Positions 31,646 through 39,361 of a stretch of 40,021 nt of DNA are shown piece by piece (position 1 is the stretch's first letter; each line of letters opens with the position of its first letter). The stretch is from an uncultured Monoglobus sp. (GTDB lineage Bacteria; Bacillota; Clostridia; Monoglobales; Monoglobaceae), in contig CANQKC010000024.1 of assembly GCA_947624305.1 (NCBI GenBank), forward strand, positions 1 through 40,021, given 5' to 3'. The notes under the pieces are model-generated. The model saw only the letters and a list, made by a program, of their open reading frames with translations, searched no databases and had not been told where the DNA came from. The translations under genes and the position numbers were made by a program.

Positions 31646-32290
31646 ATGGAATATATAGGAGCGGTTTTCGGCGGCGGCATAACGCGGGCCGTGATAAGCA
31701 ATCCCGCGAAAAAATCAGCGGAAGTAAAAAAGGCTGTGATAACGCTCAAAAGCATTGGCGGAGCCGAAAAATACCAGATCGAGACGTTCACCGAAAAGCA
31801 GGCCTTCCACAAAAACGTTGAAAAGTCGGATATAGCGACCGAGGCGGAGCGGATAATGGCCGAGGGCGGCTTCCGCCAGCTTGACGCGTGGAGCGAAAGC
31901 GCGTATTATCTGCTGAAGGTCTCAAAAAAGGGCAAAACGTCGCTCACCAAAAAACGGCTCGCCGATAAAAAGAGGCCGGCCGGCGCCGAGGGAAATAACC
32001 GTAAAAAGAAATATCTTCTGGGCGGAGGCGGCGAAATCCCGCCGCTGGTCGATCTGGGAGTTATGACAAAGGACGGCCATGTCGTCAGCGCGATGTATGA
32101 CAAGTACCGCCAGATCAACCGCTTTGTCGAGATAATAGACGACGCTCTGGGCGGCGATCCGCCGAAGGAGCTTAACGTGATCGACTTCGGCTGCGGCAAG
32201 TCTTACCTGACGTTTGTGGTGTATTATTACCTGACCGAGGTCAAAGGGATCAGGGCGAATATCACGGGGCTTGACTCAAGGCCGACGTGA
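31646..32290 (+). CDS. SAM-dependent methyltransferase (METTL25/PF13679-like), N-terminal part, frameshifted
   Basis: 214 aa, ATG 31646 with GGAGGAG upstream. The reading carries an N-terminal domain and the SAM motif [19 protein letters not shown] near residue 175-193, then ends at TGLDSRPT at 32290. The natural continuation ([15 protein letters not shown]) is in another frame that starts at about 32280. One base appears to be missing around 32276-32282 (CTCAAGGCC instead of, for example, CTCAAAGGCC). This may be a true mutation or a sequencing/assembly error; the GTGA overlap at 32287 could also allow re-initiation. Confidence 0.75.
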
Positions 32291-32793
32291 TCAGAAAATG
32301 CGGCGCGCTCGCCGAAAAATACGGTTATGAAAATCTTTCGTTCGAGGTCGGCGACATAAACGGATACAGACCGGGGGCGAAGCCCGACATGGTGATCGCT
32401 CTCCATGCCTGCGACACCGCGACGGACTACGCGCTGTATAACGCGGTCTCGTGGGGCGCGGAGCGCATAATCTCGGTGCCCTGCTGCCAGCACGAGCTGA
32501 ACGACCAGATAAAAACCGATAATTTGTCGGCCCTCACCGACTACGGCCTGATCAAGGAGCGGTTCTCGGCCCTCGCCACCGACGCGATCCGCGGCAAGCT
32601 GCTTGAGTATATGGGATATAAGGTGCAGATGCTGGAGTTTGTGGATTTTTCCCACTCGCCCAAAAACCTGCTGATACGCGCGGTGAAGCGGAACGTCCCG
32701 AAGCGGAAGCGCGAAGAGTCTCTCAAACGCGCCGAAGCACTGATAAAAGAATTTAATTTCGACCCGACCTTGTATCGCCTGCTGGTGAAATAA
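32287..32793 (+). CDS. Methyltransferase C-terminal part (after frameshift)
   Basis: 168 aa from the GTG at 32287, or the continuation of the preceding gene. It contains the remaining motifs: [19 protein letters not shown], then [13 protein letters not shown] and [17 protein letters not shown]. These belong to the same Rossmann methyltransferase domain as the upstream part, so the two ORFs were one gene of about 380 aa. Without the upstream SAM motif it cannot be active by itself. Confidence 0.75.
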
Positions 32794-32825
32794 TATATTG
32801 ATGATTAAAATATCGCCCGGATTTG

Positions 32826-32868
32826 GCGGAGGCATAGCGTGAATTATGCCACCGCTGTTTTTTTATTT
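32826..32868 (+). terminator. Terminator after the SDR-methyltransferase pair
   Basis: An 11-base stem with one A-A mismatch pairs GCGGAGGCATA (32826-32836) with TATGCCACCGC (32845-32855), followed by TGTTTTTTTATTT. Confidence 0.9.
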
Positions 32869-32926: not shown

Positions 32927-32955
32927 TTGACCTTTTTGGAAGAATGTGATATACT
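32927..32955 (+). promoter_or_regulatory. Promoter of the second BspA-like gene
   Basis: TTGACC (32927-32932) and TATACT (32950-32955), spacer 17 bp. The start site near 32962 implies a leader of about 185 nt before ATG 33148. Confidence 0.8.
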
Positions 32956-32961
32956 GAATGT

Positions 32962-33139
32962 GTCACATAAGTTAATATTCTACTTGAACTAATCGGTGTA
33001 TTTTTGCGTTTGGCAAAAATGTACGCTCTATTTTCATATACCGATTATTTCAGGTTAGAAACTTGTGTGACAACAATCGGAGCTAACATTTTTCGTGTAT
33101 GGTTTCGATTGAGGCCATACACTTTTTGTTTTAGGAGGT
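32962..33139 (+). promoter_or_regulatory. Structured leader RNA with attenuator-like terminator
   Basis: P1 pairs AATCGGTGTAT (32991-33001) with ATATACCGATT (33036-33046; one G-U). Within it TTTTTGC (33001-33007) pairs with GCAAAAA (33013-33019). P2 pairs GTTAG (33054-33058) with CTAAC (33083-33087), enclosing TTGT-GTG-ACAA (33063-33073). A terminator, GTGTATGG (33095-33102) with CCATACAC (33115-33122) and then TTTTTGTTTT, ends right at the ribosome site TAGGAGGT (33132-33139). GTGTAT at 32996-33001 could compete for ATACAC of the terminator, and AATCGG at 33075-33080 could compete for the 3' arm of P1. I recognise no known riboswitch class. Confidence 0.55.
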
Positions 33140-33147
33140 ACATTTTT

Positions 33148-34257
33148 ATGAAAAGGATTTTATGTTTAGTATTGGTATTGACAATGGTATGCGCATTGCT
33201 GACTTTTATGCCGGTAAATGCGGCGACAATAGTAGAGAGCGGCGAGTGCGGCGCGCAGGGCGACAACGTGAAATGGACGCTCGATTCCGACGGCATCCTG
33301 ACGATCAGCGGTAATGGTGATATGGAGGATTATAATTTTCTTAATTTTATTCCTTGGTACAGTAGCCGTCCAAACGTTAAAGCGGTGGAAATAAAAGACG
33401 GTGTAACAAATATCGGTAATTTTGCGTTTTATGAATGTGGCAACTTAACAAATATAAATATACCAAATAGCGTTATAAGCATCGGCGAGTGTGCTTTTGA
33501 GTCTTGCACCAACTTAACAAGTGTAAGTATGGGAAATAGCGTGAGATCTATTGGATATGGCGCTTTCCAAGAATGTAATAACTTAACAAAGATTAATATA
33601 CCGGATAGTCTGAATTATATTGGCGATATTGCTTTTTGGGGTTGCAGCAGTTTAAAAAATATAAATATACCACCCAATCTGACAAGCATTGGCGTATGGG
33701 TATTTGGCTCCTGCGGCAATCTTAACATAGAGGTATCTCCACAGAATGAAACATATTCTTCAATCGACGGAGTATTATTTAATAATAATGAAACAGAAAT
33801 ATTAACATATGCAAAAGATGAGATTCAACCGGATTATACAATTCCATATAGTGTGACAAGTATCGGCGGTAGTGCGTTTTACTGCTGTGAAAATTTAACA
33901 AACGTAAATATTCCCAATAGCGTGATTAGTATTGGAGATAGCGCATTTTTAAATTGTAAAAAATTAACAAATGTAAGTATACCAAACAGTATTGCGAGCA
34001 TTGACAGGAGGGCATTTGATGGATGTACCGGGTTGAAAAATGTATCCATCGGAAGAGGAGTGACAAGCATTGGCAATGATGCGTTTAGCTCATGCGGCAG
34101 TGTCAACATAGAAGTTTTAGAGCAGAACAATACTTACTCATCAATTGACGGAGTTTTGTTCAATAAAGAAAAAACACAAATATTAGTATATGCGAAAGAT
34201 AAAATTCAGTCGGAATATAATATTCCTGATAGCGTAACAAGTATTTCCTGCTGTTAG
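33148..34257 (+). CDS. Secreted BspA-like leucine-rich repeat protein, truncated
   Basis: 369 aa from ATG 33148, chosen for the TAGGAGGT site and the signal peptide (MKRILCLVLVLTMVCALLTF, cleavage after VNA near 30). After a short linker (WTLDSDGILTISGNGDMEDY), BspA-type repeats run to the end, with two longer blocks of the YSSIDGVLFN type. The protein ends in the middle of a repeat: DSVTSI is followed by SCC and a stop instead of G..AF..C, and there is no C-terminal domain. The recombinase element starts just after this point. The repeats are AT-rich while 33230-33300 is GC-rich, as in the first BspA-like gene. Confidence 0.75.
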   Translation: MKRILCLVLVLTMVCALLTFMPVNAATIVESGECGAQGDNVKWTLDSDGILTISGNGDMEDYNFLNFIPWYSSRPNVKAVEIKDGVTNIGNFAFYECGNLTNINIPNSVISIGECAFESCTNLTSVSMGNSVRSIGYGAFQECNNLTKINIPDSLNYIGDIAFWGCSSLKNINIPPNLTSIGVWVFGSCGNLNIEVSPQNETYSSIDGVLFNNNETEILTYAKDEIQPDYTIPYSVTSIGGSAFYCCENLTNVNIPNSVISIGDSAFLNCKKLTNVSIPNSIASIDRRAFDGCTGLKNVSIGRGVTSIGNDAFSSCGSVNIEVLEQNNTYSSIDGVLFNKEKTQILVYAKDKIQSEYNIPDSVTSISCC

Positions 34258-34270
34258 GCAAAGACTAAAA

Positions 34271-34345: not shown

Positions 34346-35938
34346 TTATTTTGTTTTCAAAACATTCTCGAATATATCCTTAAACCGATACTCGATTTCG
34401 ATTTTATTGCCCGAATATACCTTTACTTTATTGATGAAATATAAGAGCATTTCGTTCGTTATGTTCTGCTCCGAAAGAAAGTCCTCGGCTTTGTCCGCAA
34501 GACATATTGTGCTGTCGTTTTTCTGCGCTACAATGACTTGCAGCTTCTCCTGAAGCTGTGATATTCCCGTCCTTAAAGTTTCTTCTTCGCCGGACAGCTT
34601 ATCTTTAATGAACAGAAATTCATCTTTGGTAATCAGTTCGTCAACGTATCTTTCATAAGTTGATTTTCGCTCGAACGCTTTTTGCTTCAGCAGTTTCTCC
34701 GAACGGTCAATATTTGCCCGTATATTAGTTTCCGTACCGAGCGTAGATTTATCGGCTTCTCTGAGCCGTTTTTGATTATCGACGAACAGTCGGAGCTTTT
34801 CTCTTAAATCCCGCACTACAACGTCCTCAATATCCTTTTCGTAAAACTTTTCCTTTACCGGGCAAGCCGTATCGGGATTTGGAAGCGACCTGTCGCAAAC
34901 ATAATACTTCCGTTTGCTTTGCGGATGGCGGAGCATCGCCCTACCGCAAACGCCACAGGTTATGAGTGATCGCATAGGATAGTCCTTCGGCGCGGTATTT
35001 TCGTTCCTGTTGTATTTCCGTATAGCCGTCTGCGCCTTTTCAAATTCCTCGTCCGTCACAATGGCTTCATGGCAATTCGGGACTATAATCCATTGGCTTT
35101 CATCGTTTTTCTCGCTTCTCGGATTGTCTATCGACTTCCATTTTCTTGTGTTTGAAACCATATCGCCCGTATATAGGCGCGTTTTCAAAATCCGCTTTAT
35201 ATTTGCCGTATTCCAACAGTTTTGCTCCGATGTGCCTGCAAACCTCTTGCTGTCGGGGTGTAAGCTCCTAAAATACTCTGACGGCGTGAGGATTTTATCC
35301 TTGTTCAAAGCTAAAGCAATATCCGATGTCTTTGTACCGCTCTGTGCAAGGTTAAATATCCGTCTTACGATTGGAGCGGTGTTGGGGTCGGGTACAAGGT
35401 GGTTCTTGTTATTTGGGTCTTTCTTGTAGCCATACGGAGCATACGCGCCCACCCACTGACCTTTTTTATGCTTTGCCTGCATAACGGTCTTGACCTTTTG
35501 TGAAAGGTCGCGGCTGTACGAAGAATACACGATGTACTTCATTACGACTTCCATTCCCGATGTTGTACCCTTATAGTTATCGCTGTCGTAATTGTCATTG
35601 ACCGATATGAAGCGCACTCCCAGGAACGGGAAAATTCTTTCAAGATAGTCGCCTATCTCTACATAATCTCTGAAAAAGCGGCTGAAATCCTTGCAGATGA
35701 TTATATCCGCTTCGCCGTTTTTAACGCGCTCTATCATTCGTTCAAATGCGGGTCTGTCGGCATTTGTGCCGGAGTATCCATCGTCAACAAATTCTTCGGA
35801 TACACACCCCGAAAGGTCGGAGTGTGTATCTATGTATCTGCGTAATAACGCACGTTGATTTGATATGCTTTCACTTTCTGTCTTAAACTTCAAGTCCTTG
35901 TCGGCTGATGAAAGACGTATATATATAAACAGGTTCAT
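34346..35938 (-). CDS. Large serine recombinase 3
   Basis: 530 aa. The resolvase-type catalytic domain has IYIRLS with nucleophile Ser10, VDDGYSGTNADRPAF and CKDFSRFFRD. A recombinase domain follows (KKGQWVGAYAPYGYKKD region), then a zinc ribbon (CGVCGRAM ... YYVCDR) and a coiled coil near 400-480. It cuts and rejoins att sites through a phosphoserine link. The ATG overlaps the stop of recombinase 2 by 4 bases (ATGA), so translation is coupled. All catalytic motifs are intact. Confidence 0.93.
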   Translation of the reverse strand: MNLFIYIRLSSADKDLKFKTESESISNQRALLRRYIDTHSDLSGCVSEEFVDDGYSGTNADRPAFERMIERVKNGEADIIICKDFSRFFRDYVEIGDYLERIFPFLGVRFISVNDNYDSDNYKGTTSGMEVVMKYIVYSSYSRDLSQKVKTVMQAKHKKGQWVGAYAPYGYKKDPNNKNHLVPDPNTAPIVRRIFNLAQSGTKTSDIALALNKDKILTPSEYFRSLHPDSKRFAGTSEQNCWNTANIKRILKTRLYTGDMVSNTRKWKSIDNPRSEKNDESQWIIVPNCHEAIVTDEEFEKAQTAIRKYNRNENTAPKDYPMRSLITCGVCGRAMLRHPQSKRKYYVCDRSLPNPDTACPVKEKFYEKDIEDVVVRDLREKLRLFVDNQKRLREADKSTLGTETNIRANIDRSEKLLKQKAFERKSTYERYVDELITKDEFLFIKDKLSGEEETLRTGISQLQEKLQVIVAQKNDSTICLADKAEDFLSEQNITNEMLLYFINKVKVYSGNKIEIEYRFKDIFENVLKTK

Positions 35939-37629
35939 ATTTGTCCCTCCATTTCCTTGATAGCTTCTATAAGCGTTTCAAGCTCGTCGGCATATTTCAG
36001 CTTCACATCAACACGAATACCGCCATTATCATAAACGGTTATATTATCGACAAACGCATCCGCTATTTCCCGCGTGATTTTCCTTGTTTTCAGCAAGCCT
36101 TTGATGTTTTTCAGCCAGCGGTTATTTTGCGATAATGCAGTATTGAGCTTTCTGCGGTCAATTTCAAGAGTATTCAAGCGTGAGCTTAATTCTTTGCACT
36201 CATCGTCATATTTTTGTTTATGATAAATATAGTCCTCCGCGCTGAGTACGCCGTCTGTATAGTCCTCATACAACATCTCTTTGTTACGCTGACGCTTTTG
36301 AAGCCGTGCGACAATATCATCTATTTCTTTATCCATCAGCTTTTGCCGCTCGGTTAAATAGCCCGTATCTTTCATCTTTTCAACAGCCCTGCTTATATCG
36401 GCGAATAGAGCGATATGGTCTGATAAAATTGTGCCGACTATATCAGCCAATTTGTCCTCTCTTATACAATGCGTCGTTTCACAGCGGTTATATTCCTTAT
36501 TCGGACAATAATACCTTGCCGCGTAATTCTTTTCGCTCTTGTTATGGTATCGTGCATAGTTTAAGTTTGCGCCGCAGTCACCGCAGCGAATATGCGTAAA
36601 TATGGGCGGATGCTTTTCCCGAAACTTTTTTGACTTTTCCGTTTTCTTTTTATACGCCTTTGCGGATTTGTCCATATCAACCCTGACTTTATCAAAGCTG
36701 TCCCTGTCAATCAATGCGGGGTGCATATTATGAAGCACTCGCCACTTGCTTTCATCAAGAACGGTTTGAGTATCGGGCTGTCCGAGATAAAGAGCCTTAA
36801 CCTTGCGCCCGAATACCAAATCGCCAAGATATACGGGGTTTTTCAGTATATGCTTTATAGTAGCAGGCAGCCATACGCTGTTTGCGTACATTTCCTTTGC
36901 GTTTTGCCGGCGGATATATCGGAGCTTACCGGGCGACGGGATATTATCGTTGTTTAAGCCTCTCGCTATTTCGTGATAGTTCCTGCCATTCAGTTTCTCG
37001 GTAAATATCCTTTTTACTATCGGCGCTGTTTCGGGGTCTACATCAAATCTGTACGCCTGTGATGCAGACTTCACATATCCATACGGTATCATGCCTGGGA
37101 TATACTCTCCGGCAAGCTGTTTTGCTTGCACAGCCGTTGATACCTTTTTGGATATATCCTTTGAATAATAGCTGTTTATGAGATTTTTCAGCGGGATCAG
37201 CAAACTTTCGGCAGAACCGTCCGTTTCAAAGCTGTCGTACCTGTCGGCAACGGATATGAACCGAACGCCTAAAGCGGGGAATATGCTTTCAAGCAGGTTT
37301 CCCGCTTCTATATAGTCACGGGAAAACCTTGAAAAGTCCTTTATCACCAAAGCGCGGATTTTACCTTGCTTTATATCGCCCAAAAGCCTTTGAAATTCGG
37401 GTCTGTCTGTGTTAGTGCCTGTCCAACCGTTATCGACATATATATCCGCAAGGTTTAAGTAAGGGTGTTCCTCTATATATTCCCTGCAAATATTGACCTG
37501 TCCGTCTATTGACTCGCCATCGTCGTTCTTGCCGCTGTTTTCTACCGAGAGCCTCGCATATATCGCCGTTTCCCATGAAGTGATTACACTTTCTATGCAA
37601 GGACTTTCATATCGTCTTGTTCTGCCCAT
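35935..37629 (-). CDS. Large serine recombinase 2
   Basis: 564 aa, ATG 37629 with AAGGAGG 8 bases upstream. Catalytic motif IYARLS gives Ser28; VDNGWTGTNTDRPEF and IKDFSRFSRD complete the active site. The recombinase domain, zinc ribbon (CGDCGANL ... YYCPN and C..THC) and a long coiled coil (about 430-510) follow. The N-terminus is about 15 residues longer than in its neighbours. It overlaps recombinase 1 by 37 bp. The three proteins are clearly related but divergent, so they are not a recent triplication. Confidence 0.93.
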   Translation of the reverse strand: MGRTRRYESPCIESVITSWETAIYARLSVENSGKNDDGESIDGQVNICREYIEEHPYLNLADIYVDNGWTGTNTDRPEFQRLLGDIKQGKIRALVIKDFSRFSRDYIEAGNLLESIFPALGVRFISVADRYDSFETDGSAESLLIPLKNLINSYYSKDISKKVSTAVQAKQLAGEYIPGMIPYGYVKSASQAYRFDVDPETAPIVKRIFTEKLNGRNYHEIARGLNNDNIPSPGKLRYIRRQNAKEMYANSVWLPATIKHILKNPVYLGDLVFGRKVKALYLGQPDTQTVLDESKWRVLHNMHPALIDRDSFDKVRVDMDKSAKAYKKKTEKSKKFREKHPPIFTHIRCGDCGANLNYARYHNKSEKNYAARYYCPNKEYNRCETTHCIREDKLADIVGTILSDHIALFADISRAVEKMKDTGYLTERQKLMDKEIDDIVARLQKRQRNKEMLYEDYTDGVLSAEDYIYHKQKYDDECKELSSRLNTLEIDRRKLNTALSQNNRWLKNIKGLLKTRKITREIADAFVDNITVYDNGGIRVDVKLKYADELETLIEAIKEMEGQI

Positions 37630-39266
37630 AATTTACCCTCCTTGTTCAGATTGCTGTCTTTGAAGCTCTCTATGTATTGCAGAGCCGTTTCAAATCGGTC
37701 TTGATACCTGAATTTGACCTCAATATGTTTGCTGTCATATATGATTATTTTCTCTATCAGATTAACTATAACGCCCCGATGAAGCTCGGTAATGTTTTCA
37801 TATTCCCGAAACGCTTTTATCCAGTCGTTTTGAGAATTACCCGTGTCGATTGCTTGTTGGCGTTCATCGTTGATAACTGCAAGGGAACGCTGTCGTTCCG
37901 CAATTCTCCTGTCGTATCCCGCGCCAAACTCCATATATTCCTCTCGTGAAATAACGCCGTCTGCCAAATCACTGTACAGATTGAGCTTTAAGTCCTTAAA
38001 CCGCTGAATTTCGCTTTCCAGTTTTGTTATTTGCGCCTCGTAATTAAATACTCTGCGCTGCTTTTCCGGCAGTTTGTTTATGTATTCGAGAACTTCGTCC
38101 ATACGGCTTATATTATCAATATGATCTGTTACAAGCTGAAAGACGATTTTCGTTAGTTTATCCTCGCTAAAGGAGTGAGGGGAGCATACCCTGTTAGCCT
38201 TGTTATTGGAGCAGACAAGATAATGATACTTTTTATCTCCCGACGGTACGGTTTTCCGTACCATGTTACAACCGCAGTCACCGCAAAATACGAAGCCCGA
38301 AAACAGCGGCACGTTATCACTTTTGGGAGCGGTTCTTACATCACGTTTCAAAAGCAGTTGTACGGTTTCAAAATCTTTTTTATCTATGATAGGCTCGTGG
38401 TTGTTCTCGATAATAATCCAGTCGCTTCTGTCGTAATCTAAAATACGCTTTATCTTGTGATTGGGAGTACCGCGTTTATGCTGACACAGCGTACCGATAT
38501 ATACCTCGTTGGTAAGAATACGCATAATGCTTACGGGTGTCCAATAAGCTCTGTCGTTCGTGCGAAAACCCGTGTGATAGCGCATACCGTTTTTTCTTTT
38601 ATACTCCATAGGACACGGAACGCCCATAGAGTTTAATTTCTCGGCAATCTTTGAATTGCACATACCGTCAATTCTCTGATTAAAGATATATTCAACAATA
38701 CGCGCGGCTTCATCGTCAACGACGAGCTTGTTCTTGTTAGTGCCGTCTTTTTTGTATCCGTAAGTTGCAAACGCTCCGATGAAATCGCCCATTTTACGCT
38801 TGATGTCAAGCTGACTGCGGATTTTAACGGATATATCCCTGCAATAGCTGTCGTTTATCAGGTTCTTAAACGGAATAATAAGCGAGTCCTGCTGTGATTT
38901 TTCGCCGTCCGAGTCGTAGTTATCGTTGATTGCGATAAATCTAACGCCCATAAACGGGAATATCTTTTCAAGGTATCGCCCCGCATCGACATAGTTTCTG
39001 CCGAAGCGGGACAAATCCTTACAGACGATGCAGTTTATTTTCTTTTTTTTAATATCCTCCATCATCATCTTAAAGCCGGGTCTTTCAAAATTCACGCCTG
39101 AGAAGCCGTCGTCAACATATTCGCGGACAATAGCCATATTGTTGTACTTTGAAATGAAGTCCCTTATCATTTCTTTCTGACTGGTTATTGAGTTGCTTTC
39201 AGCCTTGTCGCCGTCCTCGCCAGAAAGACGGGCATACGACGCAACATTCCAAAATTTATCAGTCAT
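37593..39266 (-). CDS. Large serine recombinase 1
   Basis: 557 aa from ATG 39266, chosen for GGAGGTGAT just upstream (39279-39271); a longer reading to 39326 has no such site. Motifs: SYARLS with Ser15, VDDGFSGVNFERPGF, CKDLSRFGRN, a recombinase domain containing GAFATYGYKKDG, zinc ribbon CGDCGCNM ... YLVCSN, and a C-terminal coiled coil. It is the first gene of the three-recombinase operon. Large serine recombinases such as TndX and TnpX drive excision and integration of clostridial elements. Confidence 0.93.
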   Translation of the reverse strand: MTDKFWNVASYARLSGEDGDKAESNSITSQKEMIRDFISKYNNMAIVREYVDDGFSGVNFERPGFKMMMEDIKKKKINCIVCKDLSRFGRNYVDAGRYLEKIFPFMGVRFIAINDNYDSDGEKSQQDSLIIPFKNLINDSYCRDISVKIRSQLDIKRKMGDFIGAFATYGYKKDGTNKNKLVVDDEAARIVEYIFNQRIDGMCNSKIAEKLNSMGVPCPMEYKRKNGMRYHTGFRTNDRAYWTPVSIMRILTNEVYIGTLCQHKRGTPNHKIKRILDYDRSDWIIIENNHEPIIDKKDFETVQLLLKRDVRTAPKSDNVPLFSGFVFCGDCGCNMVRKTVPSGDKKYHYLVCSNNKANRVCSPHSFSEDKLTKIVFQLVTDHIDNISRMDEVLEYINKLPEKQRRVFNYEAQITKLESEIQRFKDLKLNLYSDLADGVISREEYMEFGAGYDRRIAERQRSLAVINDERQQAIDTGNSQNDWIKAFREYENITELHRGVIVNLIEKIIIYDSKHIEVKFRYQDRFETALQYIESFKDSNLNKEGKLWAEQDDMKVLA

Positions 39267-39361
39267 TGGTATCACCTCCGCAAATATTTTATATCCTAAA
39301 CTTTTATTAGTCGAGGATGTTGACAAGCGTGAGAAACGAGTGTAAAATTATTTATTTACGC

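Follow-up and report, generated by a model that had tools for sequence, protein, structure and literature searches.

The window, i.e. the whole stretch of 40,021 nucleotides from an uncultured Monoglobus sp. that was analyzed here, carries on its plus strand a gene for a BspA-type leucine-rich-repeat protein, the product of which has a signal-peptide-like start. The leader of this gene (32960-33133) is a member of a structured RNA family that lies outside Rfam 15; its predicted parts, together with the promoter and the gene, are as follows.

32927-32955, plus strand: sigma-A-type promoter, comprising TTGACC (32927-32932), a 17-nt spacer and the extended -10 element TGATATACT (TATACT), which ends at 32955
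32961-32973 with 33060-33072, plus strand: P1, a helix of 13 bp, with both-side changes at 9 of 10 pairs among 106 distinct family members
32990-33001 with 33036-33047, plus strand: P2, a variable arm, the P3-proximal part of which covaries
33000-33020, plus strand: P3, an apical hairpin (-6.4 kcal/mol) that covaries and is the local alternative to the pseudoknot PK
33015-33028, plus strand: 5' strand of PK, AAAAAUGUACGCUC, supported by covariation and partner swap
33080-33093, plus strand: 3' strand of PK, GAGCUAACAUUUUU, supported by covariation and overlapping the AT strand
33074-33085, plus strand: 5' strand of the predicted antiterminator AT, CAAUCGGAGCUA, supported by partner swap and prefix folding
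33100-33111, plus strand: 3' strand of AT, UGGUUUCGAUUG, within the terminator 5' arm and loop
33095-33122 (hairpin) and 33123-33132 (U-tract), plus strand: intrinsic terminator, the helix of which is 99.0% paired in the family
33133-33138, plus strand: Shine-Dalgarno sequence AGGAGG, immediately 3' of the U-tract
33148-34257, plus strand: BspA-type leucine-rich-repeat protein gene, with its ATG at 33148 (369 aa; PF13306 LRR_5, E 8.2e-63)

In the window copy P1 starts six bases downstream of the promoter end and encloses both P2 and P3, which have bases 33000-33001 in common, in that the first two bases of P3 can extend P2 instead; the stretch between P1 and the terminator is CAAUCGGAGCUAACAUUUUUC. 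The leader folds at -64.2 kcal/mol, compared with -35.8 +/- 3.7 kcal/mol for 200 dinucleotide shuffles (z -7.6). An earlier note on this DNA had described a long stem of 11 bp with an internal hairpin, a second nested stem, and a rho-independent terminator reaching the ribosome site. The long stem is present but has 13 bp (P1), the nested stem and hairpin are located within it as P2 and P3, and the U-tract does run to 33132, with AGGAGG beginning at 33133. Because there is no space for a second promoter between the U-tract and the Shine-Dalgarno sequence, expression from the leader promoter requires read-through of the terminator. That the terminator is a relic of an upstream gene, a doubt raised in the same note, is rejected, since the gene upstream is followed by a separate terminator-like hairpin of its own (approximately 32822-32868) and a promoter-like sequence precedes the leader.

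Two features of the surrounding genes were also observed. Upstream, the overlapping plus-strand frames 31646-32290 and 32287-32793, the second of which matches the end of a methyltransferase domain, suggest a single gene with a frameshift or sequencing error. Downstream, the BspA-like gene ends abruptly at 34220-34260, apparently in mid-repeat and as if cut by an insertion, before three neighbouring, overlapping genes for large serine recombinases on the minus strand (34346-39326; Resolvase, Recombinase, zinc ribbon).

No Rfam 15 family reaches its gathering cut-off in the element across the window and 20 related loci (146 kb), where the matches at gathering score are tRNAs, Gut-1, ssnA and a twister ribozyme, none of which overlaps the element, and relaxed Rfam searches with two members returned only scores far below the cut-offs. 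We consequently reject a known Rfam family, in agreement with the earlier statement that the leader matches no known riboswitch class. A T-box is likewise rejected, its core sequence occurring in the antiterminator of none of 110 members, as is leader-peptide attenuation, a Shine-Dalgarno sequence with a start codon being found within the leader in 10 of 110, nine of them with at least eight codons. Gut-1 RNAs share loci with the RNA in two cases (L133, 4768-4944; L095, 4935-5007), in the first of which Gut-1 lies approximately 100-200 nt upstream of the attenuator RNA.

By BLAST, the leader matches six sites in the window's genome and has hits in 17 of a set of 40 relatives that includes this genome; with a covariance model built from 56 sequences (alignment A1), the number of copies in the window's genome is 17 (E up to 0.001). 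Searches of more than 40 genomes scored 55 (order) or seven (class, phylum) candidates per genome, so their counts are lower bounds. At least 36 of 51 genomes in the order sample have matches, i.e. at least 35 of 38 in the window's family and at least one of 13 in other families, with the highest genus count, at least 33 copies, in G001; two close relatives, G007 (74% complete) and G008 (one contig, 99% complete), gave no match among the 55 candidates scored in each. In the class sample, matches occur in at least 96 of 391 genomes, representing at least 55 of 222 genera and, by our count, at least 21 family codes, the other 295 genomes giving no match with seven candidates scored in each. The phylum-wide sample of 398 genomes, at least 14 of which belong to the window's class, gave a match only in the window's own genome (seven candidates scored per genome), and the result of 0 of 397 for the others shows that the threshold seldom admits a match by chance.

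In named genomes, 64 loci were obtained by a pattern scan, and their records are mostly metagenome assemblies by title: one is an Opitutia MAG, one an 'uncultured bacterium', and the remainder have titles of Clostridia, Clostridiales or Bacillota type, with Monoglobus, Ruminiclostridium, Oscillospiraceae, Ruminococcus and Ruminococcaceae also among them and many from animal-gut samples. The Opitutia MAG (L084), an exact match to the short pattern, scores 14.7 bits with the covariance model, compared with at least 43 for accepted members, and is taken as a chance match. At several loci (L070, L142/L146, L163, L169, L173, L176, L187, L204) the RNA is present two or three times within approximately 700 nt, and a promoter-like sequence precedes the second tandem copy where examined (L040, L060, L070). 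When L007 is compared with L010, L012 and L026, P1, the 3' block and the promoter are near-identical and the inner P2 arms quite different, as if the arms had been exchanged through recombination.

Covariation was analyzed in two alignments. A1 comprises 56 sequences selected from 103 rows (one of which, L094, is spurious) on the basis of diversity, a well-defined P1 and a typical length; the window sequence stands in for L007, and L001-L006 and L030 were dropped as duplicates of other loci. A2 comprises 110 hits, 106 of them distinct, from 100 of 208 loci; it omits L082, L083, L098, L108, L120, L131, L138 and L140, which are near-duplicates, have an unclear P1 or are incomplete, or fell outside a limit of 100 sources, as well as L084, L116, the named loci of the window's genus and most of the earlier genus loci.

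The covariation supports P1, P2, P3 and the terminator and, in addition, two long-range helices outside the model, PK and AT. In A1, 93.3% of the cells of the nested model are paired and 24 of 35 pairs have changed on both sides; in A2 (106 distinct sequences; P1, P2, PK and terminator) the values are 97.4% and 27 of 37, with none of 500 shuffles as high in either case, and sliding the partners by 1-3 columns in A2 lowers pairing to 31.5-55.7%. All four Watson-Crick pairs occur at P1 pair 5-249. Pairing of PK in A2 amounts to 99.2% for the long half and 95.3% for the short half, the single intervening pair reaching 89.7%, with both-side changes at 168-292 (7), 170-291 (6), 171-290 (3), 176-276 (8) and 179-273 (6). 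Partner-swap z values are 21.1 for P1, 9.7 for AT, 8.9 for PK and 9.7 for P3, the alignment model of A2 having contained P3, which biases counts towards it, with PK and AT outside the model; two unrelated strand pairs, used as controls and subject to the same relatedness among the sequences, gave -0.4 and -0.6. By a simpler score, AT reached 15.5, compared with 13.9 +/- 0.22 for swapped partners (maximum of 200, 14.46) and 11.0 for shuffled strands.

The columns shared by P3 and PK are informative in this regard. Columns 70/170/291 read C-G-C or U-G-C in 93 of 110 rows and U-A-U in six (family codes f32, f22, f34 and, twice, f1, with one named MAG), and columns 71/168/292 read A-U-A in 48 rows and G-C-G in seven (f70, f56, f1), the codes having been assigned to loci by our own matching; by this three-way compensation, covariation links one apical strand to both of its partners, that in P3 and that in PK. 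The conserved unpaired bases are A24-U25-A26 between P1 and P2, U183 after the PK strand, and CAA after P1. Given the strength of the covariation, the objection foreseen in the earlier note, i.e. that related leaders might show no conservation, fails.

The helices compete in a chain, in that P3 and PK, PK and AT, and AT and the terminator each have one strand in common. When members were folded as prefixes, with most of the terminator 3' arm absent, at least three bases of GGAGC paired with the terminator 5' side in 104 of 106, compared with a mean of 43.7 of 106 (range 32-54) in a shuffled-block control. The median energies are -16.1 kcal/mol for the prefix (AT) fold and -15.9 kcal/mol for the terminator, with a median difference of 0.0 (quartiles -1.75 and 1.75) when three 3'-arm bases are kept; when none is kept, the count is again 104 of 106 and AT is weaker than the terminator by a median of 1.2 kcal/mol. 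For the window copy we obtained -16.2 kcal/mol for AT, -16.2 or -17.4 kcal/mol for the terminator, depending on the stretch folded, -10.2 kcal/mol for the PK duplex, loop costs excluded, and -6.4 kcal/mol for P3, all of these being folding energies that take no account of tertiary structure.

Mutually exclusive pairings of this kind had been anticipated in the earlier note, which derived them from the words GTGTAT and AATCGG, but those found differ in part from those proposed. The pairing that involves AATCGG, i.e. that of CAATCGGAGCTA (33074-33085) with the terminator strand given above, is conserved in the family, whereas the sharing of the two words with the P2 5' arm is a coincidence of the window copy (AATCGG occurs in the arms of one of 110 members and GTGTAT in those of 17), and PK was not among the pairings named. 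Two features of a transcription attenuator are found here, namely an antiterminator, conserved in the family, the pairing of which is incompatible with that of the terminator (prefix folding, 104 of 106; swap z 9.7), and an intrinsic terminator between the promoter and the gene served, together with the structured, conserved and covarying sensor expected of a riboswitch.

We propose that RNA polymerase would start a few bases from P1 and that the sensor domain would then fold into P1, the variable arm P2 and the hairpin P3 at the apex; the 3' block, GAGCnnnGCAUUUUU, once transcribed, could form PK by pairing with the 3' half of P3. With PK formed, the 3' block would be unavailable as an antiterminator, the terminator would fold before the ribosome site and transcription would stop after approximately 170 nt. 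Without PK, the 3' block would form AT with the loop and 5' arm of the terminator at a time when the 3' arm has yet to be transcribed, permitting read-through into the gene, the targets across the family being surface, secreted and other accessory genes. The opportunity for PK formation would span approximately 18 nt of transcription, from the end of the PK 3' strand (33093) to completion of AT (33111). Because PK and AT compete for GAGC and the following bases, and AT and the terminator for the terminator 5' arm, two states are predicted, i.e. PK with the terminator and P3 with AT, and from the strand overlap and the order of synthesis we infer that the PK-folded form would be the OFF state. 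The balance would be set by a signal, most likely a small ligand that is bound directly; the conserved unpaired bases cluster where PK would close a pocket, which suggests that the bound form is the PK form and hence OFF.

We consider it likely that this RNA, as the leader of the mRNA for a BspA-like surface protein, belongs to a large family of Clostridia transcription attenuators absent from Rfam 15, with a predicted switch in which PK is OFF and AT is ON; the attenuator is probably an orphan riboswitch. The central proposal of the earlier note, a new cis-regulatory attenuator before a BspA-like gene, is thus supported, with the regulation itself a prediction.

The genetic context of the family bears on this reading. 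A promoter score of at least 9 of 12 was obtained in 91 of 105 distinct upstream regions, compared with 9.7% of shuffles, and in those 91 regions the -10 box ends 4 nt (78 regions), 5 nt (12) or 2 nt (1) upstream of the modelled RNA, a spacing so fixed that the 5' end of the RNA is probably that of the transcript. Of 97 usable copies, 56 are followed on the same strand by a gene start no more than 150 nt away, and 14 have a divergent gene start upstream, no more than 150 nt from the promoter; 41 of the 97 have no start with a good Shine-Dalgarno sequence within 150 nt downstream, and some of these may be stand-alone RNAs or decayed copies. Among the 98 downstream starts chosen, 66 are within 60 nt, and 54 of the 98 proteins have a signal-peptide-like start, compared with 36 of 187 control ORFs at named loci, the calls being made by our own hydrophobicity rule and the control ORFs being subject to a stricter Shine-Dalgarno rule than the downstream genes.

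A Pfam scan of 51 of the 100 downstream ORFs found BspA repeats most commonly (13), a figure that under-counts BspA because most of the BspA paralogues of the genus were left out, followed by copper-amine-oxidase N-terminal domains (3), SLH domains (2), RCC1 repeats (2) and MazE/AbrB-like domains (2); other genes that follow the RNA encode small proteins of unknown kind or hypothetical proteins, an HTH_36 protein and an IS200 transposase. Overall, what follows the RNA is a broad range of accessory genes, roughly half of which have an export-like start. The surface-protein gene named in the earlier note is present in the window, but the family as a whole precedes genes far more varied than BspA. 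Since these genes have location in common more than pathway, they do not indicate a ligand. At several loci (L029, L038, L059, L066-L069, L141, L151) the RNA is followed by the gene for a small MazE/AbrB-like protein, the C-terminal part of which is rich in cysteine, and this protein could link the RNA to a transcription factor.

The same attenuator might be switched by an RNA-binding protein instead of a small ligand, a possibility that we regard as unlikely but deserving of serious consideration. The conserved unpaired A24-U25-A26, U183 and the CAA after P1 could form the protein site, and a precedent for protein-switched attenuation exists in the rimP-leader, argued to be a protein-controlled attenuator in PMC2965389. 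Of the general factors considered, LoaP is above cut-off in only one of 40 relatives (G035) and CsrA likewise in only one (G027), neither of which has an RNA match among the 55 candidates scored, and Hfq is present in 10 of 40, none in the window's genus, the RNA carriers G013 and G021 of the window's family being among those that do have it; all three are disfavoured as general factors by this occurrence. We think it improbable that there is no switch and that the RNA is the product of an independent small RNA gene, equipped with a promoter and a terminator, the read-through of which merely feeds the neighbouring gene. The promoter-like sequence and terminator carried by most members, the tandem copies at several loci and the 41 of 97 usable copies without a nearby start with a good Shine-Dalgarno sequence would fit such a gene; however, a plain small RNA requires neither the covariation of AT nor an antiterminator matched in energy to the terminator, and the terminator in the window adjoins the Shine-Dalgarno sequence, with 66 of 98 chosen starts within 60 nt.

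It is very improbable, in our view, that the RNA is a repeat or mobile element with a terminator, a 'mobile attenuator' of the type proposed in PMC2965389, that landed before genes by chance. There are many paralogous copies, some of which share near-identical flanks around different inner arms, and one copy in the window's genome precedes an IS200-type transposase, but the orientation bias (56 versus 14 of 97), the fixed promoter distance and the compensatory changes in the helices imply selection on the RNA. Carriage by phages or plasmids is rejected: none of 72,556 plasmid records and none of 50,697 phage records was matched by the window leader in blastn, and the single match from two pattern scans of viral contigs (L209, exact to the short pattern), which scores 21.6 bits with the covariance model, compared with at least 43 for accepted members, is taken as chance. 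Riboswitches that occur in many copies before surface genes are typical of c-di-GMP signaling, and the many copies per genome seen here, often before surface or secreted proteins, together with two GGDEF matches in the window's genome, might suggest a c-di-GMP-sensing riboswitch. We nevertheless give this reading very little credence. Five carriers lack a GGDEF match, i.e. G011 (at least 26 copies), G014 (at least 22), G019 (at least 11), G023 (at least three) and G030 (at least one), which, being 82-94% complete, might in any one case reflect a missed gene; conversely, G008 has 14 GGDEF matches and no RNA match (55 candidates scored), and the RNA has no likeness to Rfam models. c-di-GMP is thus disfavoured as the general signal.

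Returning to the attenuator with a directly sensed signal, we more tentatively advance a bolder proposal, which may well prove wrong, that the family constitutes a new class of orphan riboswitches in gut Clostridia, a single RNA design, present in up to at least 33 copies per genome, sensing a common intracellular signal directly via a strand-exchanging pseudoknot and coordinating much of the surface and secreted proteome. If the attenuator reading is correct, a regulatory RNA family present in about a quarter of the class sample (at least 96 of 391 genomes) has been missed by Rfam 15-based annotation. One attenuator design before many unrelated genes would resemble a regulon without a transcription factor, and would offer a way to study how gut Clostridia select the surface, adhesin-like and lipoprotein genes that they display. 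It would also define a testable switch based on competition between four helices, the ligand of which could be sought in vitro with RNA alone.

With respect to previously reported systems, no description of the RNA was recognised in the titles and abstract openings covered, a scope that lies outside most subscription journals, figures and supplements; the RNA may be listed under a number in published supplementary tables, e.g. those of PMC8040213. The family resembles attenuating riboswitches in having its own promoter, a structured and conserved sensor, and a terminator beside the downstream gene, with the antiterminator and the intrinsic terminator mutually exclusive. It differs in that the sensor strand here swaps between P3 and PK, with the PK 3' strand overlapping that of the antiterminator, and in that up to at least 33 copies per genome precede accessory and surface genes rather than those of a single pathway.

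The mobile attenuators of Naville and Gautheret (2010, PMC2965389) are transposon- or prophage-derived terminators and likewise place one attenuator family before many unrelated genes, but the RNA reported here has a long covarying sensor, a promoter and an antiterminator and occurs in at least 21 family codes of one class. By description, the nearest RNA in print that we found is the SLH motif, a riboswitch candidate from Thermovirga lienii for which Stav and others (2019, PMC6429828) report 80 examples in Synergistaceae, Clostridia and Negativicutes, approximately 60% of them before SLH-domain genes. Both are cis-regulatory candidates that precede surface-protein genes, Clostridia included, and two of the 51 proteins scanned here match the SLH domain; BspA repeats, however, not SLH domains, are the commonest here (13 of 51), a distinction drawn from the description of the motif rather than from its sequence. 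On these comparisons, that with the SLH motif being by description, we regard the RNA as representing a new family of riboswitch-like transcription attenuators, with the status of a putative riboswitch.
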